From assembly GCA_026706845.1 (NCBI GenBank), contig JAPOXY010000189.1:1-37707 (forward strand): a DNA stretch of 37,707 nucleotides. The letters run 5' to 3'. Of this stretch, positions 1-14,374 are shown one piece after another. Below the pieces are notes generated by a model. It was not told the DNA's origin. It did not search any database and saw nothing but the letters and a program-made list of their open reading frames with translations. The stretch comes from Gemmatimonadota bacterium (GTDB lineage Bacteria > Latescibacterota > UBA2968). The position numbers were made by a program, and so were the translations under genes. Every line of letters starts with the position of its first letter. The first letter of the stretch is position 1.

Positions 1-216
1 TTGGAAAATACGCTGTCGCTTACCGATATTTACGGTTCTTATATTTCTCTGGATTGCGTATTTCAAGATGACAATATGAATCAGTTGTTTGACAGCATGG
101 ATGCAGAAGATAGAGAAATTTTTAATTGTGATGTTTCGCGCATAGATTGGCCCTCTTATGTAAAAGAGGTTCACATTCCCGGCTTGCAACGCCATGTGCT
201 AAAGACCGGTGTTTAG
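1..216 (+). CDS. Fatty acyl-CoA reductase (alcohol-forming), C-terminal fragment
   Basis: Only the last 71 codons are in the window, so the TTG at base 1 is probably internal and the true start lies upstream. The visible piece resembles the C-terminal 'sterile' (FAR_C) domain of alcohol-forming fatty acyl-CoA reductases. It has an acidic stretch, then FNCDV, IDWPSYV and a GLQRHVLK ending, which parallels the 'F.V..I.W..Y......G...YVL' pattern of FAR1-type enzymes. Such enzymes reduce acyl-CoA to fatty alcohol with NADPH. The next gene starts 9 bases after the stop, so this gene is very probably co-transcribed with the ether-lipid genes, where the fatty alcohol would be the substrate of the AGPS homologue. 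The Rossmann domain is outside the window, so the call rests on a short tail and on context. Confidence 0.72.
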   Translation: MENTLSLTDIYGSYISLDCVFQDDNMNQLFDSMDAEDREIFNCDVSRIDWPSYVKEVHIPGLQRHVLKTGV

Positions 217-224
217 GATCTCTC

Positions 225-2165
225 ATGACCTCACGCGATAGATCGGATACTCGTCCATTGCACGAATCACTGCTCGACGATCTGGAGCAGATGTTGGCTA
301 TTTATGACCAATCGGTTCAGCTTATGCTCGAAGCCGTGCGTCACGATGGCTATTTTGACGATCTTGATCCAGATGCGCTTGTCTGGCCCAAAAGTCAGAG
401 CGGGGCGGTGGATATGGAGGCACTGCAATTTCGCGCGCAACTTGTGGATGCGATTTTTCAGGGTCTGCCCGAGGTTCGCGATGAGCGTTTGGAAGAGGCG
501 TATCGTCCTTTTGCGGAGTTGCTTCCGCAATATCACACGGGGAGCCGAATTTATTTGCAACTCAGGCGGCAATTTGTCGAGCGAGGTCGCGGAGATGCGA
601 AAGATTTTTTGAAGTTGTATCAATCTCTTTATTTGAAGGCTCTGGCACGGGCGGAGTTGCACGCGCCCGAAGCCGTGGAAGAGGCATTGGCTCAGGTGCA
701 TATTACACAGGTGCCGATGTCGCATGCCCGCGCCGTTGCAGAGGCGCTTGACACTGTGGAGGCGGATGAGGATGCGCACTGGGGCGAGGAGTACAGTTGT
801 GAACGAGATGGCGAGCAGATTGAGGGCACTTTGCGCGATTTGTTGCAAGATGTGGCACAGCGCACGCTCAATTTGATCGCCGCGGGGGGGTTGCTCTCAA
901 CGCGGTATAATTATTTGACGAATTTTGGCTGGTTTGGCGTGTCGGTGTGGAAGGTTATTGTGGATGCGGAGGTGGCTTTGGCGCAGTTGCGCGACGATGT
1001 GGATCTGGCCGGGATAGATGATGATGTGTTGCACATCAAGGCGCTGTTGATTGAATTTTTGCACGCACATCAGGAAGATCCCACCAGGCTGCGTCCCCGG
1101 CTGTACTGGTATGGGCAGGAATATAGTTATTTGACGCGGGATATGATTGATTTGTCGATTAAGCTGATATGCGATGTGAACGCGCAAATCGATCGCGTTG
1201 GGCAAAAAGACTCGCGTGTAGAGATTCCCGCTTTGCTCGCAGATACGGCGCAAGGGCGATTTTTGGAATATCCCAATGTCGGGTGTCGGGGGCAATTTTC
1301 GAAATTGCAGAGAGGAATGCGTTTTGTGAGGTGGATGGGAACTTCGCTCAAGGTGGGGCGAAAAAAAAAGAAATTGTTGGAAAGAGAAGCCGATCCCATC
1401 CGTCGCCGCGAAGCTGGATGGCGCACCTGGCTCGATTGGGGACGGCGCACGCTGGATATTTTTGATATTCGCGTTGATATTTATATTGATCCCCATTTTG
1501 AAGCTATTGTAAGAGATTTGGGAGCCGATGCAGAAGATCGGCGTCTTATTTTTTTGCCAACGCATCAGAGTCTGTTTGACCATCCCGTTTTGTACAGGGT
1601 TTTGCAGTCTCGAGAATTTTTGAATGCTATGGGATGGGAAAGACCCGAACCGTGTGTAATTTTGGCGCGCACGGGGCTGGCGCGTTCGGGTATCAAAATT
1701 GGGTCGAAACAGATTACGCAGTTTGGGATGACGTCTGAGGTCTTTGATCAGATTCTGGAAAATGTCGATGGCTATGTGATGCTCGAGCGATCCCATGCCG
1801 CGGGCCATACGACACAGCGCGTGGCACAGGCATTGACAGAGCGACCAGGCGTTATTTATCCCATGGCGACGACCGCAGCTTTTGCGATCCAGCAATTTCC
1901 GCTTCAACACGGGGTGTTTGCACAATTGCCCCAGGATGTGGTGATTGTGCCGATTGCGTACCGCGGGCTTCACGCGCTGTGGCCCAAGTGTCCAAAGGGC
2001 AATATCAATATCAATCCAGGGCAGGTCGATGTGTGGGTTTCTCCGCCCATGCTGGGGGAGACCACTCTGTTGCCCAAGAGGCGGTCGTTGCGGATTCAGT
2101 CCGAGGCTGCCGCGCTGTTTCAAGCGGTGCATATTGCGACGTTGTTGAATCCGGAAGGATCGTGA
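225..2165 (+). CDS. GNPAT/PlsB-type acyltransferase (probable DHAP or glycerol-3-phosphate acyltransferase)
   Basis: This is a 646-residue protein, close to the ~680 residues of animal GNPAT and larger than PlsC enzymes. The start at 225 is chosen because AGGA lies 6 bases upstream and an earlier in-frame start would overlap the previous gene heavily. The first ~400 residues are mostly helical and unassigned. The acyltransferase core begins near 410. Motif I (HX4D) is H447 to D452 in THQSLFDHP, and a motif IV-like VIVPIAYRG lies near 573-581. The usual motif III (FPEGTRS in PlsC) is replaced by VMLERSHAAG (about 518-527), so substrate specificity cannot be read from it. Between an acyl-CoA reductase and an AGPS homologue, the expected role is acylation of dihydroxyacetone phosphate at sn-1. 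A plain glycerol-3-phosphate acyltransferase remains possible. Confidence 0.78.
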   Translation: MTSRDRSDTRPLHESLLDDLEQMLAIYDQSVQLMLEAVRHDGYFDDLDPDALVWPKSQSGAVDMEALQFRAQLVDAIFQGLPEVRDERLEEAYRPFAELLPQYHTGSRIYLQLRRQFVERGRGDAKDFLKLYQSLYLKALARAELHAPEAVEEALAQVHITQVPMSHARAVAEALDTVEADEDAHWGEEYSCERDGEQIEGTLRDLLQDVAQRTLNLIAAGGLLSTRYNYLTNFGWFGVSVWKVIVDAEVALAQLRDDVDLAGIDDDVLHIKALLIEFLHAHQEDPTRLRPRLYWYGQEYSYLTRDMIDLSIKLICDVNAQIDRVGQKDSRVEIPALLADTAQGRFLEYPNVGCRGQFSKLQRGMRFVRWMGTSLKVGRKKKKLLEREADPIRRREAGWRTWLDWGRRTLDIFDIRVDIYIDPHFEAIVRDLGADAEDRRLIFLPTHQSLFDHPVLYRVLQSREFLNAMGWERPEPCVILARTGLARSGIKIGSKQITQFGMTSEVFDQILENVDGYVMLERSHAAGHTTQRVAQALTERPGVIYPMATTAAFAIQQFPLQHGVFAQLPQDVVIVPIAYRGLHALWPKCPKGNININPGQVDVWVSPPMLGETTLLPKRRSLRIQSEAAALFQAVHIATLLNPEGS

Positions 2166-2182
2166 AATGTTTGAGGTACGAT

Positions 2183-4015
2183 ATGAATGAACTGATGATA
2201 GTTGCAATTTTACTGGTGATCGTATTTTTGCTCGTTCGAGGGCGTCGCGCTTTTGCCAGTAAAGACCGTTTTTTTCAGGGGGAAGAAGGCGAGCGGTTTG
2301 CTCACAAGTGGGGGTATAAGGATACGCGGTTTGAGTTTGACGATGACAGGACCGTGCATGTGACGGGAACGCGGTATCCGTTGTGTGGCTATCGGATGCC
2401 GTATTTTTTGCCTTTTGTCGAAGGGGTGCTCGATGTGCCGGTCCGGCCCGAAGATATGGGGCAAGAGGTCGAGCATCGCGATTTGCCCGCGCCTGTGGCA
2501 AATGATGAATTTTTGCGGGCGGTGCGCGAGGCGCTCAACGAAGATGGCATTTCTCAGGAGGATATAGAGCGTCTGGTGCATAGCCACGGGCAGTTGAGTG
2601 TGGATGAGGTGTATCAAATTTTGTACCATCGGCCGCCCGAACGCCTGGTGGATGTGGTGTTGTTTCCAGAGGAAGACGCGGATATTCAGGCTGTTATTCA
2701 GCTTGCAAATGAACACAATGTGGTGCTGGTGCCCTATGGCGGTGGGACGAATGTGAGCGGTGCGCTCGCTGTTCCTATTTCAGAGACGCGGATGGTCGCG
2801 TCGGTGGATATGCGTCGCATGAATCGCATTGTGCAGGTGGATGAAGAGAATTTTCAGGCGTGTGTGCAAGCGGGTATTTCGGGTAAGCAATTGGAGATTG
2901 CGCTAAATGAATTGGGATACACGTCGGGACACGATCCCGATAGTCTGGAGTTTTCAACCCTGGGGGGATGGATTGCGACCAATGCCAGTGGTATGAAAAA
3001 GAACCGGTATGGCAATATTGAGGATATTGTGATAGAGGCCACGCTGGTGACGCCGACGGGGGAAGTGGAGACACACCATGCGACGCCGCGCAATTCGACA
3101 GGTGTGCAGCCCAGGTCGTTTTTGTTTGGTAGCGAGGGCAATTTGGGGATTATTACCCGGGCGACGATAAAGATCCACAAACAGCCCGAAGCACAGGCGT
3201 TTGGCTCGCTGGTGTTTCCGTCATTTGAACGGGGTGTGGCTTACTTAAAGGCACTTCGGCAGACAGGGCAAGTTCCGGCGAGTATTCGGCTGGTGAACAA
3301 TACGGAATTACAGCTTGGGCAGGCGCTGAAGCCCGAGGTAAAAGGATTCAAGAAGCTCCAGCAGGATATTCAGCAATTTTTTTTGGTTAAGGTCAAGGGA
3401 TTTGATCCAGAGCAGTTGGTGGCGTGTACGATTGTGATGGAGGGCACAAAAGACGAGGTCCGGCAGCAGGCAAAGACGATTTTTCGTTTGGCGAAGAAAT
3501 ACGGTGGTATTTCGGGCGGGGCGCACAGGGGCGAGCGGGGGTATATGTTGACGTTTGGCATTGCGTATATTCGCGATTTTTTCACTCAGTTTCACATTTT
3601 GGGCGAGACATTTGAGACTTCTGTGCCGTGGACTAATATTCACGACGTTATAGGTGCGGTGGAAAAGAAGCTATTTGTTTTGTGTGAAGAATACAGTGTG
3701 CCGGGCAAGCCCTTTCTGGCTTATCGCGTGACGCAGACCTATCACACGGGCGTGTGCATTTATTTTACAATGGGTTTTTGCGCGCAGGGGCTCGAGGATT
3801 CGGTTGGCGTTTATCACGCGATTGAACGCCGGCTGCGGCAGGAGATTTTAGACCACGGGGGGTCTTTGTCGCACCATCACGGCGTGGGCAAGCTCCGCAG
3901 TGGCTTTTTGCCGCAGATTCAAAGCGAAAATAGCATTGCAGTGTTGCGGCAGATGAAGAAGGCGATGGATCCAAATAATATTTTTGCCATTGGCAATGGG
4001 GCGTTTGCGGATTGA
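2183..4015 (+). CDS. Alkyldihydroxyacetonephosphate synthase (AGPS-like, FAD-dependent)
   Basis: A 610-residue flavoprotein of the VAO/FAD_binding_4 family that strongly resembles animal AGPS. It begins with a hydrophobic segment (residues 4-18). The FAD pyrophosphate loop is PYGGGTN (184-190). The AGPS-specific block GHDPDSLEFSTLGGW (249-263) is followed by ASGMKKNRYGNIED. Further family landmarks are GSEGNLGIITRATIKI (316-331), PASIRL (365-370), AYIRD with R464, the YRVTQTY tyrosine Y520, and the histidine triplet in SHHHGVGK (563-570). In AGPS these Tyr and His residues carry out exchange of the acyl chain of acyl-DHAP for a fatty alcohol, forming the ether bond. The start at 2183 has GAGG six bases upstream and lies 17 bases after the acyltransferase stop. 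Generic FAD-linked lactate or glycolate oxidases lack the SHHHGVGK and ASGMKKN blocks, so this call is firm. Confidence 0.92.
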   Translation: MNELMIVAILLVIVFLLVRGRRAFASKDRFFQGEEGERFAHKWGYKDTRFEFDDDRTVHVTGTRYPLCGYRMPYFLPFVEGVLDVPVRPEDMGQEVEHRDLPAPVANDEFLRAVREALNEDGISQEDIERLVHSHGQLSVDEVYQILYHRPPERLVDVVLFPEEDADIQAVIQLANEHNVVLVPYGGGTNVSGALAVPISETRMVASVDMRRMNRIVQVDEENFQACVQAGISGKQLEIALNELGYTSGHDPDSLEFSTLGGWIATNASGMKKNRYGNIEDIVIEATLVTPTGEVETHHATPRNSTGVQPRSFLFGSEGNLGIITRATIKIHKQPEAQAFGSLVFPSFERGVAYLKALRQTGQVPASIRLVNNTELQLGQALKPEVKGFKKLQQDIQQFFLVKVKGFDPEQLVACTIVMEGTKDEVRQQAKTIFRLAKKYGGISGGAHRGERGYMLTFGIAYIRDFFTQFHILGETFETSVPWTNIHDVIGAVEKKLFVLCEEYSVPGKPFLAYRVTQTYHTGVCIYFTMGFCAQGLEDSVGVYHAIERRLRQEILDHGGSLSHHHGVGKLRSGFLPQIQSENSIAVLRQMKKAMDPNNIFAIGNGAFAD

Positions 4016-4049
4016 AATTGGAAAGGACCGATTGATTTTGAGCGGCGAA

Positions 4050-4862
4050 ATGTTTCGCAATAAAGTTGTGATCATTACAGGCGCGTCTTCGGGGCTTGGG
4101 GCTGCGTTGGCTCTGGAACTGGCGAAGCAGGGCGCACATCTGGCGTTGTTTGCTCGGCGAGAGGACAAGCTGGGCGAGATGGCTGAGCAGTGTCGGGATT
4201 TGGGGGCACAGGTGGTGACGGTGGTGGGGGATGTGACACGGCTCGAAGATTGTGAGCAGTTGATTGAGGCGACGATTGCAGAATTTGGCCGCATAGATTA
4301 TTTGATTGCCAATGCCGGGATCAGTATGTGGGCGCGGTTTGACGAGGTGGAAGATTTGGAGGTGTTTCGCAAGCTGATGGAGACCAATTACCTCGGTCTG
4401 GTTTATTGCGTGCATGCGGCATTGCCACATTTGAAAATTTCAAAGGGTATGATCGTGGCGATTGCATCTTTGCAGGGCAAATTTGGCGTGCCTCTGCACA
4501 CGGGATATGGCGCGTCAAAGCACGCGGTGCTGGGTTTTTTAAACGCCCTGCGTCTGGAAGTTGGAGATGTGCATGTTTTGACGGTTTTGCCGCATTGGCT
4601 TCAGGGAACGAATTTGAGACGGCACGCTTTTGGGAAGGATGGTGAAGCACTGGGCGATTCCTCACAGCGGCACAATAAAGAGGCGCTTTCTCTTAGATCT
4701 TGTTGTAGGGCAATTTTGAAAGCTATGCGAAAACAGAAGCGCGAATTGGTGCTTCCCTGGCACCACCGCGCATTGCCCTATCTGCAATTGATTCATCCCA
4801 AGATTGTCGAGTGGCTGGTGAGGAGGAAGATGAAGGGGCAGGGTTTGGGAGATATGGCGTGA
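4050..4862 (+). CDS. SDR-family reductase, DHRS7B/PexRAP-like (probable acyl/alkyl-DHAP reductase)
   Basis: A classical short-chain dehydrogenase of 270 residues. The cofactor loop is GASSGLG (11-17), the NAG motif is at 88-90, and the catalytic triad residues are S140, Y153 and K157 (YGASK). Residues following the Rossmann core, including METNYLG, IVAIASLQGKFG and the C-terminal basic helix, resemble DHRS7B (PexRAP), the mammalian enzyme that reduces acyl- or alkyl-DHAP. Specificity within the SDR family is hard to assign from sequence, so the DHAP substrate is inferred from the AGPS gene 34 bases upstream. ATG 4050 begins at the conserved first strand; TTG 4038 is an alternative. The last codons overlap the next gene, indicating translational coupling. 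Confidence 0.82.
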   Translation: MFRNKVVIITGASSGLGAALALELAKQGAHLALFARREDKLGEMAEQCRDLGAQVVTVVGDVTRLEDCEQLIEATIAEFGRIDYLIANAGISMWARFDEVEDLEVFRKLMETNYLGLVYCVHAALPHLKISKGMIVAIASLQGKFGVPLHTGYGASKHAVLGFLNALRLEVGDVHVLTVLPHWLQGTNLRRHAFGKDGEALGDSSQRHNKEALSLRSCCRAILKAMRKQKRELVLPWHHRALPYLQLIHPKIVEWLVRRKMKGQGLGDMA

Positions 4863-5914
4863 CGCCCGATGATCCTGGAACTTCCATAGAAGAAGCCGTG
4901 GGACAGATGCTGATGATCGGTTTTCGCGGTGATGTTCTATATGGGGATATTGTTGCGCTATTGCGGGATATTCGACCCGGTGGGGTGGTGCTTTTTGATT
5001 ATGATCTGCCGAGTAAAGGTGAGGTGGTGCGGAATATTACGTCACCGCGGCAACTTCGTGCTTTGACCTCAGCGCTCCAGGATATAGCGCCTTATTTTAT
5101 TGCGGTTGACGTAGAGGGTGGATATGTCAACCGGTTAAAAAAGAAATATGGTTTTTCGGTTTCTGTGCCTTCTGCCCAAATACTCGGTGGACAGTCCCTC
5201 GGTAAGACGAAAAAGGTAGCAGATGCTCTTGCGTGCGAATTGAAAGAGATGGGGATTAATTGGAATTTTGCTCCTGTTGTCGATGTGAATATAGATCCCA
5301 AAAGCCCGGCTGTTGGCGCGATAGAACGGTCTTTTAGTGATGTGCCGAGGGCTGTGGTGGCACATGCCAATGTTTTTATTAAGGCGCATCGAGAACAGCA
5401 GGTGATACCGACGCTAAAACACTTTCCCGGACACGGAAGCGCGGCGGGTGATACACATCTGGGTGTTGCCGATGTCACACAGACATACCGACGTGCGAAA
5501 GAGCTTTTGCCGTATCAAAAATTTATCCAGAAAGGCTATGGCGATCCGATTCTTACCGCGCATATTGTCAATCGGAAGCTCGACAAGAGCGGGAGGCCGG
5601 CAACTTTGTCGTATGATATTATGACGAGGCTCCTCAGATATGAGATGGGTTTTGATGGGGTCGTTATTTCCGATGATATGCAGATGGGGGCGATTGTCGA
5701 GGCGTATGGTTTGACGGAAGCGGTTGTTGAAGCGATAAAAGCAGGTGTTGATATGATTTTGCTCGCCAACCAGATTGGGGAATACAATATTGAGCAGGTG
5801 TATGAGGTAAAAAATGCCATTGTGCAGGCGGTAGCAGATGGCGTTATCGAGGAAGACCGCATTTGCGAATCTTTTAATCGGATTCAAAGATTGAAGCAGA
5901 GGTTCGGGATTTAA
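4859..5914 (+). CDS. nagZ: Beta-N-acetylhexosaminidase, GH3 family (NagZ-like)
   Basis: A 351-residue glycoside hydrolase family 3 protein without a signal peptide, consistent with cytosolic NagZ, which removes GlcNAc from anhydro-muropeptides in peptidoglycan recycling. Signatures seen are KHFPGHG (187-193) followed by D198 and H200 of the catalytic loop, and SDDMQMGA (271-278), which carries the nucleophile aspartate. The start is taken as GTG 4859, overlapping the preceding stop as GTGA, with GGGAGA a few bases upstream; the only upstream ATG would lie well inside the reductase gene. Its link to the lipid genes is positional and probably reflects general cell-envelope housekeeping. It appears to be the last intact gene before the terminator at 6047. 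Confidence 0.88.
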   Translation: MTPDDPGTSIEEAVGQMLMIGFRGDVLYGDIVALLRDIRPGGVVLFDYDLPSKGEVVRNITSPRQLRALTSALQDIAPYFIAVDVEGGYVNRLKKKYGFSVSVPSAQILGGQSLGKTKKVADALACELKEMGINWNFAPVVDVNIDPKSPAVGAIERSFSDVPRAVVAHANVFIKAHREQQVIPTLKHFPGHGSAAGDTHLGVADVTQTYRRAKELLPYQKFIQKGYGDPILTAHIVNRKLDKSGRPATLSYDIMTRLLRYEMGFDGVVISDDMQMGAIVEAYGLTEAVVEAIKAGVDMILLANQIGEYNIEQVYEVKNAIVQAVADGVIEEDRICESFNRIQRLKQRFGI

Positions 5915-6046: not shown

Positions 6047-6077
6047 CTCATCTCATCATGAGATGAGTTTTCTTTTT
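6047..6077 (+). terminator. Intrinsic terminator ending the lipid/nagZ operon
   Basis: A perfect 9-bp stem (CTCATCTCA and TGAGATGAG) with a 3-base loop is followed directly by TTTTCTTTTT. The stem is AT-rich, so termination may be partial. It lies 132 bases after the nagZ stop and immediately before the lipid-kinase start, which could then be read by leak-through. Confidence 0.72.
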
Positions 6078-6083
6078 AATCTG

Positions 6084-6959
6084 ATGTCAAATCACTGGAC
6101 AATTATTGCGAATCCCGTTTCGGGACGTGGCCGTGCAAGGCGTACAGGTGAGCGGGTTGCGGATTTGTTGCACGAGCGCGGTGTATATGTAGATTTGATG
6201 ATGTCGGGAGCACCGGGCGATTGCGAGCGGTTAGCGCGGGAAGCATTGGCGCGAGGCGTGCGACAGGTTGCTGCATGTGGGGGGGATGGGACAGTGCATG
6301 AGGTGGTCAATGGTCTCGCAAATTCAGATGCGATTTTGGGGGTTGTGCCGTGTGGTCGCGGGAATGATTTGGCGCGGGCGTTGGGGTTGTCCAGTGATGT
6401 GGAGGATGTGGTCAATACGCTGGTGCATGGGGTGGATCGCGCGATTGATCTGGGGAAAGTGGGTGACCGTTTTTTTGTGACTGTTGCGAGTTTGGGTTTC
6501 GATACGGCGGTGGCGCAAAGGGCGCGGTCTCGACCTTCGAGATTGGGTGGGACAGCGTCCTATTGTCTGGCGGTTTTGCGAACACTATCTGGATATCGAT
6601 CTCCTTTTGTGCGTCTGCGAGGAGATTTTGGCGTTTTTGAAGGGCGTATTTTGCTGGCGGCAACGGCGAACGCGCCTTTTTATGGGAGCGGGATCAAAAT
6701 TGCACCTGATGCCATTGTTGACGATGGGGCGCTGGATGTGTGCATTGTGGCAGATGTTTCGCGCTGGACGGTTTTGCGGATGTTTTTGCGCGCGTATTCC
6801 GGCGCTCATGTTGGTCATTCTGCTGTGCGCGTTGTGCAGACCAGAACTTTGCAGATTGAGTCAGATGATCCCCTGTGGATTTTTGCGGATGGGGAACCGA
6901 TGTGTGAGGTTCCCGCAAAGATTGAGGTTGTTCCGGGTGCGCTGAAGGTGAAGGTATAG
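6084..6959 (+). CDS. Diacylglycerol kinase family lipid kinase (YegS/DagK-like)
   Basis: A 291-residue protein with the DAGK catalytic fold. Motifs are NPVSGRGRA (10-18), the nucleotide loop GGDGTVHEVVNGL (66-78) and PCGRGNDLARALG (89-101). The last motif usually reads P.GTGND, so the threonine is replaced by arginine here. The family phosphorylates diacylglycerol, ceramide or related lipids with ATP, and length is normal. ATG 6084 is preferred over ATG 6063 because the latter lies inside the terminator stem; neither has a clear ribosome-binding site. Its place directly after the ether-lipid operon suggests phospholipid metabolism, but the substrate cannot be told. Confidence 0.88.
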   Translation: MSNHWTIIANPVSGRGRARRTGERVADLLHERGVYVDLMMSGAPGDCERLAREALARGVRQVAACGGDGTVHEVVNGLANSDAILGVVPCGRGNDLARALGLSSDVEDVVNTLVHGVDRAIDLGKVGDRFFVTVASLGFDTAVAQRARSRPSRLGGTASYCLAVLRTLSGYRSPFVRLRGDFGVFEGRILLAATANAPFYGSGIKIAPDAIVDDGALDVCIVADVSRWTVLRMFLRAYSGAHVGHSAVRVVQTRTLQIESDDPLWIFADGEPMCEVPAKIEVVPGALKVKV

Positions 6960-11545: not shown

Positions 11546-13072
11546 TTAAAAGTCTGCGCCGAAGTTCTGGACAAAGATGAGGAAGTCCGGGAAGGTAACG
11601 CGCAGGTCACCGTCGAGGTCAAAGGTGGGATCGAAGCCAACGTCGCCTGCGGTTTTGCCAAAGACAGAGGTAAAGGCGAGGAAGTCCGAGAAGCCGATTT
11701 CACCGTCGCCGTCAAAGTCTGAGGCTGCGGGACCGGACGCGAGTTCAGATACGGAGAGGGTGTAACCGAGTGTTGTGCCAGATGTGGAGGTGATGGCGAG
11801 GCTTCTGGCAATAGTGCCGGATGTGTGAATGCGTTTGCTCTGTGAGGCTGAAATGGGGATCGGTGCGGCGAAGGGTTGATTCCCTTCGGCGATGAGTGTG
11901 ACGAGGAGGTCGTTGTCACCTGTGGATTGAATGGTGAAGGCGAGACCGGGTGTTTCGCCCAGATCGAGATAGTCTATGCCCCAGCGCGTGGCGCGTCGCG
12001 TGAGGTTATTGGTCGGGACGGTGAGGGCTTCGCGCTTTGCCGGGTGCAGGTCAATGGCGCGATAGCCGAGGTCGCCCTCGCCGTCGAGGTACAGGGCAGC
12101 GGCCCATTGCCCAAAGAGGTGATCGAAGCGTTCGGGTGCGTTGAGCGATTGAAGGACATTGTCGATGCTCGCTATGCTGCTGTCCGGGTCTGCGACGAGT
12201 TTGCGGAGTGCGCCGTTGCCATAGCGCTGTGCGAAGTACGTCATGTAGAGATATGCCTGGTCAAAATCAAAAAACTGATCTTCCCAATGGGTGAGGTCTG
12301 TATTGGTCGCGAACGAGAGAAAATTTTCGGTCGCGGCTGCTGTCGTGTCTTTGTATCCACAGGCGAGTTCAGCGTATTCCGAGCACCCTTCGTCGAGCCA
12401 TTTGGCTTCGTCGTGGTCGGCTTTCCAGTGGATCAGGTGCTGAAATTCGTGGGCAAGTGTGGCGCGTGCGAGGCTGCTGTCAATGTCGAGCGGGCGGGCG
12501 TCGATATAAATGATTTCGCGCGAGACGGGCGGGGCTTCGTTGTCGGTATCGATATAACCGACAAATGTGATGCCCGTGATTGGACTGTCGAGCACGTCGA
12601 GTACCAGGATGAGTATGCGGGGATCGGCATCGACATCCGGAGGATCACCAAAGAGGTCGGTGACAGTTTCGTAAATGCCGCGGTCGGGATGGCGTGCTGT
12701 GGATTTATCAAATGCGTGTGCAAGGGATTCAATGCCCGTTTGAGTTACGCGCGGGGTGTTCCACATGTCGTCTTCTACAAAAATGTAGCAGTGGTCACCC
12801 ACATAGCGACAGGTTGTTGTGGTGTGGTATTTCCCCCCGCCAACGAGTTGAAAACTGTAAGCCGGCAGCGTGAGCGTATCGCCAACGCGAAAAGGTGTGG
12901 AGGAGGATATTTTGGTTGCGGGACGATAGGGTATGGTTTGACGTGGAATCAGGTGGGTTCCGCTTTGAGGGATGGGGTGGGCGTGGGCTGTGATGCAAAA
13001 AAGCGCAATGCAGCAGATAAAAAAAATAGGGATGTAACGCAAAGAGCGTTTGGGAATTGTCGGCAAAGGCAT
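11546..13072 (-). CDS. Exported zinc metallopeptidase (M30-like) with C-terminal dockerin-like EF-hand pair
   Basis: A 508-residue exported protein. An N-terminal signal peptide spans about residues 8-31 and ends in AHA. The zinc motif is HEFQH (208-212), followed by WLDEGCSEYAE (225-235), whose glutamate can be the third ligand, as in M30/hyicolysin-like and gluzincin peptidases. The C-terminus has two calcium-loop motifs, DFDGDGEIGFSDF (452-464) and DLDGDLRVTFPDF (485-497), forming a dockerin-like module. The start at 13072 is chosen because it opens the signal peptide and lies 2 bases after the previous stop; longer upstream frames would overlap that gene. The neighbours are exported or envelope proteins. 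Substrate is unknown. Confidence 0.82.
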   Translation of the reverse strand: MPLPTIPKRSLRYIPIFFICCIALFCITAHAHPIPQSGTHLIPRQTIPYRPATKISSSTPFRVGDTLTLPAYSFQLVGGGKYHTTTTCRYVGDHCYIFVEDDMWNTPRVTQTGIESLAHAFDKSTARHPDRGIYETVTDLFGDPPDVDADPRILILVLDVLDSPITGITFVGYIDTDNEAPPVSREIIYIDARPLDIDSSLARATLAHEFQHLIHWKADHDEAKWLDEGCSEYAELACGYKDTTAAATENFLSFATNTDLTHWEDQFFDFDQAYLYMTYFAQRYGNGALRKLVADPDSSIASIDNVLQSLNAPERFDHLFGQWAAALYLDGEGDLGYRAIDLHPAKREALTVPTNNLTRRATRWGIDYLDLGETPGLAFTIQSTGDNDLLVTLIAEGNQPFAAPIPISASQSKRIHTSGTIARSLAITSTSGTTLGYTLSVSELASGPAASDFDGDGEIGFSDFLAFTSVFGKTAGDVGFDPTFDLDGDLRVTFPDFLIFVQNFGADF

Positions 13073-13074
13073 TG

Positions 13075-13698
13075 TTAAAATCGGACTGAGAGTCGCACCT
13101 GTAAGTCTCCGGAGGTCTTGGGGGAGACTGTTGCGATAGGGCGGGTTTTGGCGGCGATGTTGGCGGCGTTTAACGCGCTGGCAAAGCGGTTGAAGATGAG
13201 TGCGCCCACAAAGAGAAAGCTGCGTGTGCGGGCCCAGGTGGCTTTGCTTCGCAGTTCTCGAAAGTGTTCGCGGGAAGACGGTGTGTCCCACTCCCAAAAG
13301 TTTTCGGGTGTTTCCGGCAGTGGGGTGGCCGATGGGCCCTCGACGTATTGCAACCGGGCATTGTAGTCGTAGATGCTGTTATAACTGGACAGGCGGTCGT
13401 AATGGGAGTTGGGTTTTTTGACAGCGGTTGCGCCAGCGCGTGCCGCGGCATAAGCGCGGAAGGTGTTCTCTCGTGTGGTGTTGAGTTTTTTAAATGCCAA
13501 TAGTCCGGTCCAGAACATGCCTTCGGTGAAGTGGAAAAATTTCGCGGATTTTCGCCCGCCCGCATACCGCTCGCCCAGACCGGGTAAAATAACCGATAAA
13601 AAGGCGGCTTTTTTAGGTGATTTCGCTTCTTGTGCAAATGCGGCAGACGGCGCGAGCAAACAGGCGCAGACGATTAGAATTTGAGATGATGTTTTCAC
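13075..13698 (-). CDS. DUF5683-like exported protein, second of two paralogues
   Basis: A 207-residue protein with a clear signal peptide (cleavage near AFAQE, about residue 23). After it comes KSPKKAAFLSVILPGLGERYAGG, the pattern of DUF5683 and related FCB-group proteins, in which a small hydrophobic hairpin precedes a membrane segment. Another hydrophobic stretch lies near FLFVGALIFNRFASALNAA, and the protein ends in an aromatic residue (LSVRF). The gene immediately upstream (13703-14374) encodes a paralogue with the same layout. Function of the family is not known to me; the operon suggests an envelope role. Confidence 0.66.
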   Translation of the reverse strand: MKTSSQILIVCACLLAPSAAFAQEAKSPKKAAFLSVILPGLGERYAGGRKSAKFFHFTEGMFWTGLLAFKKLNTTRENTFRAYAAARAGATAVKKPNSHYDRLSSYNSIYDYNARLQYVEGPSATPLPETPENFWEWDTPSSREHFRELRSKATWARTRSFLFVGALIFNRFASALNAANIAAKTRPIATVSPKTSGDLQVRLSVRF

Positions 13699-13702
13699 GA
13701 TG

Positions 13703-14374
13703 CTAAAATCTCTTTTTCAATTCGACCATGGATCGTCCATGGCTATCAACCGGCGTGATGTCGATCCACAAGCTCGGCCCGGTCTGTTTTTGCAGCGTGC
13801 GCGTATAGATCGAGGCGTGTATGGCACTGGCAATGTGGTTGAGTACGGCCAGGCCTGTGACAACAGACGCGCGTTTGAGGTATTTGTTGCTGTCGTTGCG
13901 ACGGGTTTCATAGTCCTGCCTGCGTGACGATGGCACGTTTTTGTTATCGGTGGAAAAGTCAGCCGTCACATCGTCCCAGCCATAGACAAATTGATGGTAT
14001 TTGCCAATGAGTTCGTAATACTGTTGTGTGTCTTCGCTTTTGGAGGGCAGGGCGTGGGTTTCGTGATATGGATCGGGCTGAGTTTTGTTCCATTCTCGCC
14101 AGGCTCTGTACTGCGCTTCCCGCCAATGCCGATCGGCATACGCTCGAAATTCTTCTTTAATGTCATTGCCCCTGCCTCGCCATGATACATAAGCGGTCCA
14201 GGTGAGGGCTTCTGCGCCCATAAACCCGACTGCGCGCATTTTGGCCCCGGCATATAATTCACCCAGACCCGGTACCAGTAGTGAGAGAAAGAAGGCCGTT
14301 TTAGGTGATTTTTCCGCGGTGGCCTGCCCGCACATCAGCGCGAAAACAAGCGTACAGAGTGTGAATTTTCGCAT
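13703..14374 (-). CDS. DUF5683-like exported protein, first of two paralogues
   Basis: A 223-residue protein with a signal peptide (cleavage near residue 20, QATAE) followed by KSPKTAFFLSLLVPGLGELYAGAK, which parallels the downstream neighbour. A central charged region is rich in Tyr and Trp (YRAWREWNKTQ), and a C-terminal hydrophobic segment has VVTGLAVLNHIASAIHAS. Both paralogues share order of elements, length and a basic, Phe-terminated C-terminus (VELKKRF here), so they look like a tandem duplication that has diverged strongly. It lies 14 bases after the protease/propeller/barrel gene. No enzymatic motif is seen. Confidence 0.66.
   Translation of the reverse strand: MRKFTLCTLVFALMCGQATAEKSPKTAFFLSLLVPGLGELYAGAKMRAVGFMGAEALTWTAYVSWRGRGNDIKEEFRAYADRHWREAQYRAWREWNKTQPDPYHETHALPSKSEDTQQYYELIGKYHQFVYGWDDVTADFSTDNKNVPSSRRQDYETRRNDSNKYLKRASVVTGLAVLNHIASAIHASIYTRTLQKQTGPSLWIDITPVDSHGRSMVELKKRF

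Follow-up and report, generated by a model that had tools for sequence, protein, structure and literature searches.

A conserved bacterial operon for a probable dihydroxyacetone phosphate route to glycerolipids in a class of Latescibacterota

Bacterial membranes, in the textbook account, start from glycerol-3-phosphate (G3P), which is made mainly by GpsA. A published survey reports gpsA in almost all of the bacterial groups that it lists, with Atribacteria and Caldiserica as the exceptions (PMC5059525). In the animal peroxisomal pathway, FAR1, GNPAT, AGPS and PexRAP/DHRS7B are described in the reaction order that we propose here for a bacterial operon (PMC9131029). The same source describes an operon in Myxococcus xanthus, MXAN_1676-1674, that encodes AGPS, a FAR-GNPAT fusion and an NAD-dependent epimerase/dehydratase, and reports that disruption of the AGPS gene lowered ether lipids only slightly (PMC9131029). 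Clusters with elbD-like genes from sponges have been assigned to Acidobacteriota and Poribacteria (PMC9426513), and Leishmania lacking the G3P acyltransferase is reported to be able to build ester lipids from acyl-dihydroxyacetone phosphate (acyl-DHAP) (PMC3219689). Homology searches have placed AGPS homologues in 67 of 92 Latescibacterota metagenome-assembled genomes from the Black Sea (PMC11868695), and complete phosphatidylethanolamine pathways are reported for sponge Latescibacterota (PMC12993501). Here we analyse a stretch of 37,707 nucleotides (GenBank assembly GCA_026706845.1, contig JAPOXY010000189.1), hereafter the window, which is a whole contig (G000:C189:1-37707) of a bacterium labelled Gemmatimonadota and placed by GTDB in Latescibacterota. 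It begins with a run of four genes for a fatty acyl-CoA reductase (FAR), an acyltransferase (AT), an alkylglycerone-phosphate synthase (AGPS) and a short-chain dehydrogenase (SDR). We consider it probable that this operon serves a DHAP route to glycerolipids and that this route is their main or only entry.

In the titles and abstract openings of the open-access literature, we found no FAR-AT-AGPS-SDR operon in Latescibacterota, no bacterial class that lacks GpsA, PlsX and PlsY and uses acyl-DHAP, and neither the AT family described below nor its mutual exclusion with PlsY and GpsA.

The operon and its four proteins

The four genes follow one another on the + strand, with gaps of 8, 17 and 34 bases:

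1..216, + strand: 3' end of the FAR gene, last 71 codons, with PF03015; the 5' part is on contig C63
225..2165, + strand: divergent acyltransferase (AT), 646 amino acids, proposed DHAP acyltransferase on the basis of a predicted PlsC/GPAT fold and context
2183..4015, + strand: AGPS, 610 amino acids, with a hydrophobic segment at the N-terminus, recognised by FAD_binding_4, FAD-oxidase_C, phmmer and tree
4050..4862, + strand: SDR, 270 amino acids, proposed alkyl/acyl-DHAP reductase, recognised by adh_short and PRK06181

A first-pass annotation made from the letters of the window had already described four adjacent genes in a tight run, and both the small gaps and the Pfam domains bear this out; the motifs that it named (SHHHGVGK, GHDPDSLEFST, HX4D, METNYLG and IVAIASLQG) are all found in the translations.

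The FAR 3' end matches the Pfam Sterile domain (PF03015, E 3.8e-16, 59.4 bits against a cut-off of 35.4) and shares 98.6% identity with the C-terminal end of a complete FAR open reading frame (ORF) of 541 amino acids in the related locus L022. Because the window spans the entire contig, base 1 is an assembly edge, and the Rossmann domain of the FAR cannot lie in the window. The first-pass annotation had named its absence upstream of base 1 as fatal to its reading, and the domain is present both in relatives and in the same genome: FAR residues 1-444 are encoded at G000:C63:55520-56851, at the end of a contig of 56851 bases, and adjoin the divergent genes that are found upstream of FAR in relatives. 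Complete FARs in three scanned relatives carry PF07993 followed by PF03015 in one protein (for example, E 3.2e-65 and 6e-15), and the FAR profile matches a solved fatty acyl-CoA reductase (PDB 7eoz, E 5.8e-124). Judged by these similarities, the FAR is a true FAR1-type reductase with both domains, whose own gene is split between C63 and C189. The divergent genes of L022 carry NDK, YceD, FabH, FabD-type and FabG-type domains in a domain scan, with rpmF, acpP and fabF assigned by reading the ORFs; a fabH-fabD-fabG-type cluster lies divergent from the operon in L022, L023, L025, L027, L030, L037, L040 and L041, with ndk and yceD in most.

The AGPS carries FAD_binding_4 (E 3e-38) and FAD-oxidase_C (E 1e-37), and in phmmer it scores 512 bits (E 2e-152) against the guinea-pig enzyme ADHAPS (4bby), compared with 88 bits (4.6e-24) against D-lactate dehydrogenase; the score against the Dictyostelium enzyme is 301 bits. 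It keeps SHHHGVGK and the counterparts of guinea-pig R419 and Y578, which, together with the HHH stretch, we take to be catalytic residues of the guinea-pig enzyme; R419 and Y578 are the positions altered in the variant structures 4bc7 and 4bca. The HHH, R419 and Y578 patterns occur in 16 of 16 AGPS rows from the window's class, and the HHH and R419 pattern in none of seven FAD oxidases from the class. In a tree of 25 rows (these 16, two eukaryotic AGPS and the seven FAD oxidases), the 18 AGPS rows split from the oxidases with support of 100/100. A misnamed lactate or glycolate oxidase, the possibility that the first-pass annotation had singled out as fatal to its reading, is thus ruled out by this split together with the 512 against 88 bits, and the window protein is, on homology, a true alkyl-DHAP-synthase homologue. 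A search of plasmids with tblastn gave one match to AGPS, on a Streptomyces plasmid, with 32% identity. Close AGPS relatives at seven named loci are labelled Latescibacterota or Latescibacteria in six cases and Gemmatimonadota in one; the latter (L053, JAPPIE010000285.1) has an AGPS 94% identical to that of the window, and its phylum label may be wrong.

Two types of AGPS can be recognised in the class rows, one comprising 14 rows (98/95) and the other from genomes G021 and G026, which stands beside the guinea-pig AGPS (95/89) in a tree whose few, long-branched rows are read without drawing an origin from them. The second AGPS type is found with its own second SDR type at L042:7902-10480 and L043:9224-11832. 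The second-type SDRs of G021 and G026, located beside the type-2 AGPS, share 50% identity with one another and 28-34% with the window SDR. That each AGPS type adjoins its own SDR lineage supports a reductase that acts with AGPS.

The SDR itself matches adh_short (E 7.8e-49) and NCBIfam PRK06181 (306.8 bits, cut-off 215), and its TGASxGLG and YxxxK motifs are invariant among 18 aligned members. Its top NCBIfam model, PRK06181, is generic, and its PDB matches are assorted SDRs, with clavaldehyde dehydrogenase and 11-beta-HSD1 first. The protein therefore reads as a catalytically plausible classical SDR; the first-pass annotation had called it a homologue of DHRS7B/PexRAP, and the classical SDR with TGxxxGxG and YxxxK stands, while orthology to DHRS7B is not established. 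Its genomic context suggests that it would reduce alkyl-DHAP and acyl-DHAP.

The AT is recognised by sequence with more difficulty. Against PF01553 the window protein reaches 12.2 bits, with a cut-off of 23, and three relatives give 15.8, 12.5 and no match. No NCBIfam match was found at E <= 0.01 for the window AT and two relatives, a family profile of 14 rows found no relative in the PDB, and tblastn of the AT against plasmids found nothing. Two ATs from family f4 of the class do attain PF01553 (G033 with 25.3 bits, G038 with 23 with neighbours), so that the AT is best placed as a far branch of the PF01553 superfamily. An AlphaFold model (pLDDT 75.7, pTM 0.79) predicts a mostly helical N-domain (about residues 1-355) and a C-domain (about 356-646) that, as modelled, has a PlsC/GPAT-type fold: it matches Thermotoga maritima PlsC (5kym) with a Foldseek E of 4.9e-5 and Z 15.9 over 227 residues (root-mean-square deviation 3.7), and plant and algal GPATs with Z 10.3-10.7. 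The N-domain folded alone (pLDDT 83.3) gave no Foldseek match at E <= 0.001 and no VIA match at Z >= 8, which does not establish a new fold. In profile comparison with the C-domain, the PlsC of the class obtained a probability of 2.6% and the ElbD-type acyltransferase domain 45.7%. The histidine of the HX4D motif (H447) is present in all 16 members compared and the aspartate (D452) in 12, with E in the other four. Canonical motif III is of the EGTR type, with Glu and Arg; in the AT it reads G/A-T-T in 16 of 16 members, with T-T replacing T-R, and a preceding Glu in two of the 16. Of the first-pass annotation's HX4D acyltransferase homologous to GNPAT, the motif is borne out, and the homology is not shown by sequence, with 12.2 bits where 23 are needed: as far as sequence goes, the AT is a divergent acyltransferase family in which no GNPAT is recognisable. 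The context of its gene suggests that it would acylate DHAP.

Gene order and glycerolipid entry genes across the class

The comparison drew on a phylum sample of 64 genomes, 47 in the window's class and 17 in other classes. Families f1-f3 make up 22 of the 41 class genomes first searched, and 18 of these 22 keep the FAR-AT-AGPS-SDR order on a single contig; for one of the 18 (G010), the order was taken from separate AGPS, AT, FAR and SDR searches. Contig ends interrupt the order in three of the remaining genomes (G000, G004 and G015), and the fourth, G021, has an SDR of the second type and, directly upstream, a gene of the AMP-binding acyl-CoA synthetase type. Inserted ORFs between AGPS and SDR or between AT and AGPS occur in G002, G007 and G008. 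In L051 (G009), AT and AGPS are each in two frames, perhaps through assembly errors, since the relatives are intact. The gene order, which the first-pass annotation had proposed to follow in related genomes, is conserved far beyond chance, and the 18 of 22 rule out a chance cluster.

In f4, AGPS lies directly beside the orthologous SDR in eight of 11 loci (of the others, one has ORFs between them, one has the second SDR type and one is cut), and the AT gene is located elsewhere. The f4 FAR is mostly the front of a protein of about 1400 amino acids, found as frames of 1406-1508 amino acids in 14 of 18 matched f4 genomes; G029 and G033 have discrete FARs. Domain scans of two of these long proteins showed AMP-binding and PlsC-type domains, with a possible carrier domain. 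Examples are:

L083:4156-8349, L084:5099-9316, L085:5323-9765 and L086:4229-8410: ElbD-like proteins of about 1400 amino acids (FAR, AMP-binding, PlsC-type acyltransferase)

The distribution of the usual entry genes is complementary to that of the AT. PlsX was searched in 41 class genomes, and PlsY and GpsA (C-domain) in all 47 and in the 17 outside; in 14 control genomes, the PlsX, PlsY and GpsA searches matched 8, 8 and 10, respectively. The AT family is present in 46 of the 47 class genomes (the exception, G027, is 75% complete) and in none of the 17 outside, whereas PlsY is found in 0 of 47 against 12 of 17, and the GpsA C-domain likewise in 0 of 47 against 12 of 17. Four outside genomes have neither PlsY nor GpsA; their completeness is 57-80%. 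The table of the published survey carries a single mark for Latescibacteria, seemingly under GpsA, as would be consistent with the phylum's other classes (PMC5059525). PlsX exceeded the cut-off in none of the 41 class genomes, with one weak match, in G020. The plsX gene commonly sits between rpmF and fabH, and in the relatives' loci no plsX ORF was found at this place in the fab clusters divergent from the operon.

PF01553 was detected in 41 of 41 searched class genomes, and 17 of the 22 f1-f3 genomes have a single match, in a frame of PlsC size (223-300 amino acids). In the window genome this gene lies between those for a cytidylate kinase and an S1-domain protein, the usual location of plsC. 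No G3P acyltransferase of the PlsX/PlsY or PlsB type and no GpsA were found in this genome. Since its sole PF01553 gene looks like plsC and no PlsX or PlsY was found, the AT is the only candidate found there for sn-1 acylation. AGPS-level matches (over 500 bits) occur in 35 of the 41 genomes; G027 has a 250-bit fragment, and in G004 a contig end truncates the gene. An SDR orthologous to that of the window (over 400 bits) was detected in 37 of 47 class genomes, and the ten others are G004, G024, G027 and G028, apparently with fragmentary loci or incomplete genomes, G021, and five genomes of genus g14.

The proposed route and its alternatives

From these genes, we infer the following scheme, including its substrates, its lipid products and the part played by the SDR as reductase. 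The AT would acylate DHAP to acyl-DHAP, and the FAR would reduce fatty acyl-CoA or acyl-ACP (acyl carrier protein) to fatty alcohol; AGPS would put this alcohol in place of the acyl group, which turns acyl-DHAP into alkyl-DHAP; and the SDR would reduce alkyl-DHAP, as well as acyl-DHAP escaping AGPS, to 1-alkyl- and 1-acyl-glycerol-3-phosphate, which PlsC and the usual later steps could then use. Acylation of DHAP followed by reduction is the simplest scheme, because no GpsA was found and the neighbouring AGPS and SDR need such a substrate. As neither a G3P acyltransferase nor GpsA was found in the genome, the DHAP route is probably the main or only entry to glycerophospholipids, and sn-1 alkyl ethers would be expected in the membranes. 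We judge the pathway reading of the four genes to be likely, and the first-pass annotation's proposal of a FAR, DHAP-acyltransferase, AGPS and reductase route in one operon is supported, as a proposal, by a tight and conserved gene set. Of its interpretation as a whole, a true FAR, a true AGPS, a plausible SDR and a conserved operon remain; the GNPAT homology of the AT is not supported. We also lean, by a narrow measure, towards the wider view that the whole class dropped GpsA, PlsX and PlsY and became DHAP-first, using an undescribed AT family and an AGPS-reductase pair to make phospholipids from acyl- and alkyl-DHAP.

Several observations weigh against the DHAP-first reading. Four genomes of genus g14 (G030, G031, G036 and G039) have the AT with no AGPS-level match, and the same four, together with G026 and G021, are without the orthologous SDR, yet also without GpsA and PlsY; the AT is thus not always accompanied by AGPS and SDR, and G3P may come from elsewhere. 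Either the g14 genomes reduce acyl-DHAP with another enzyme or they take G3P from elsewhere; among enzymes that supply G3P, the search covered GpsA alone. The pattern marks one clade and so counts as one event, not as 47 independent ones. In 10 genomes of other classes, plsY lies close to gpsA on the same contig, so that a single deletion could have removed both. The AT has a motif III without the canonical Glu and Arg, with E for D in the HX4D of four of 16 members; most f4 genomes have another, ElbD-like acyltransferase; and the role of the SDR is read from its context.

These points lend some weight to an add-on pathway, in which the operon would yield minority ether lipids and bulk phospholipids would come from G3P through the AT, with G3P supplied by an enzyme of the glycerol kinase or GlpD type. 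The four genomes that have AT without AGPS or orthologous SDR are in line with it, as are the matches of the AT C-domain model to plant and algal GPATs (Z 10.3-10.7) and the small contribution to ether lipids reported for the M. xanthus AGPS gene (PMC9131029). Such an add-on nevertheless leaves aside that GpsA was not found in 47 of 47 class genomes, PlsY in 47 of 47 and PlsX over its cut-off in 41 of 41, and that in f1-f3 the AT gene lies between FAR and AGPS in one operon. We regard it as unlikely; the data agree better with a class-wide exchange in which entry from DHAP took the place of entry from G3P.

Far less probable is an operon for fatty alcohols or wax esters, in which FAR and AT would make and esterify an alcohol for storage, AGPS and SDR being incidental. 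A FAR with an acyltransferase is the usual pairing in wax-ester synthesis, but the AGPS keeps all the catalytic residues checked, the order is kept in 18 of 22 genomes, the predicted AT fold is of the glycerolipid PlsC/GPAT type, and without PlsX or PlsY no other sn-1 candidate was found in the window genome. An artefact of assembly or binning, or a recent transfer from an animal host, might be suspected from a window that begins at a contig edge and from a phylum that includes sponge-associated bacteria (PMC12993501). We give this hardly any credence: either the complete operon or its AGPS-SDR pair is spread over the class, the single-contig genomes G007, G008 and G037 among them, a distribution on which we reject host contamination, and the AGPS forms separate clades within the class.

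If the DHAP-first reading is true, these bacteria would have replaced the first committed step in the making of their membranes. The operon provides a small set of genes with which alkyl-ether synthesis in bacteria can be tested, together with an acyltransferase family open to characterisation and a bacterial counterpart to set beside the human enzymes of plasmalogen synthesis.

Flanking genes and comparison with known systems

Two genes follow the operon on the same strand:

4859..5914, + strand: GH3 family glycosidase, beta-N-acetylhexosaminidase-like (PF00933, E 6.9e-63)
6063..6959, + strand: YegS-type lipid kinase (TIGR00147, 180.6 bits against a cut-off of 118.65)

If it starts at the GTG at 4859, the GH3 gene shares 4 bases with the end of the SDR gene. 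It adjoins the operon in the window and in seven of eight same-genus loci, and in none of the other compared loci; the glycosidase is probably outside the lipid route. A YegS-type kinase lies 3' of the SDR in 12 of 12 f1 loci (about 6 kb off in L026) and in one of six f2 loci, and is possibly an accessory gene whose product phosphorylates alkyl- or diacylglycerol. Another YegS-type kinase (DAGK_cat, YegS_C) is found in one f4 genome at L084:9593-10495, divergent beside the ElbD-like gene. Elsewhere in the window, an ORF on the - strand (11546-13297) resembles a secreted protein with two C-terminal DxDxDG-type repeats, dockerin-like by eye, and at 13075-14374 (- strand) there are two adjacent, similar small ORFs with a PGLGExYAG motif, perhaps a tandem duplication.

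Like the GpsA/PlsX-PlsY route, the proposed route would deliver 1-acyl-G3P to PlsC; none of the three genes of the former was found in the class (41 genomes for PlsX, 47 for the others), whereas PlsY and GpsA occur in other classes. The trypanosomatid DHAP route (DAT, ADS1, alkyl/acyl-DHAP reductase), as described, resembles it in that DHAP acylation feeds ether lipids and in an acyltransferase with a long extra N-terminal part (PMC3219689); that route is eukaryotic and glycosomal, and the likeness is one of description. With ElbD of M. xanthus and of sponge-symbiont clusters, the f4 proteins of about 1400 amino acids share the architecture given for elbD homologues (PMC9426513), whereas the window's own family has discrete genes in place of ElbD-like proteins.

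The M. xanthus operon, compared here by its published description, likewise brings together AGPS, FAR and acyltransferase functions with an NAD-dependent partner. Bacterial AGPS is thus known, as the first-pass annotation had said, but the myxobacterial homologues that it called isolated include, in M. xanthus, a member of a three-gene operon. There one protein combines FAR with a GNPAT-like domain, and the third gene encodes an epimerase/dehydratase type of enzyme; here FAR, AT and SDR are separate, the order differs, and no FAR-GNPAT-like fusion was encountered in the window and the f1-f3 loci, where the genes stand apart.

From the animal pathway the locus differs in being one bacterial operon with no organelle, in an AT that is no recognisable GNPAT and an SDR of unproven orthology, and in that the canonical G3P route was not found alongside. 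It resembles that pathway in an AGPS that scores 512 bits against guinea-pig ADHAPS with the catalytic residues kept, and in a FAR that carries Rossmann and Sterile domains, as animal FARs do.

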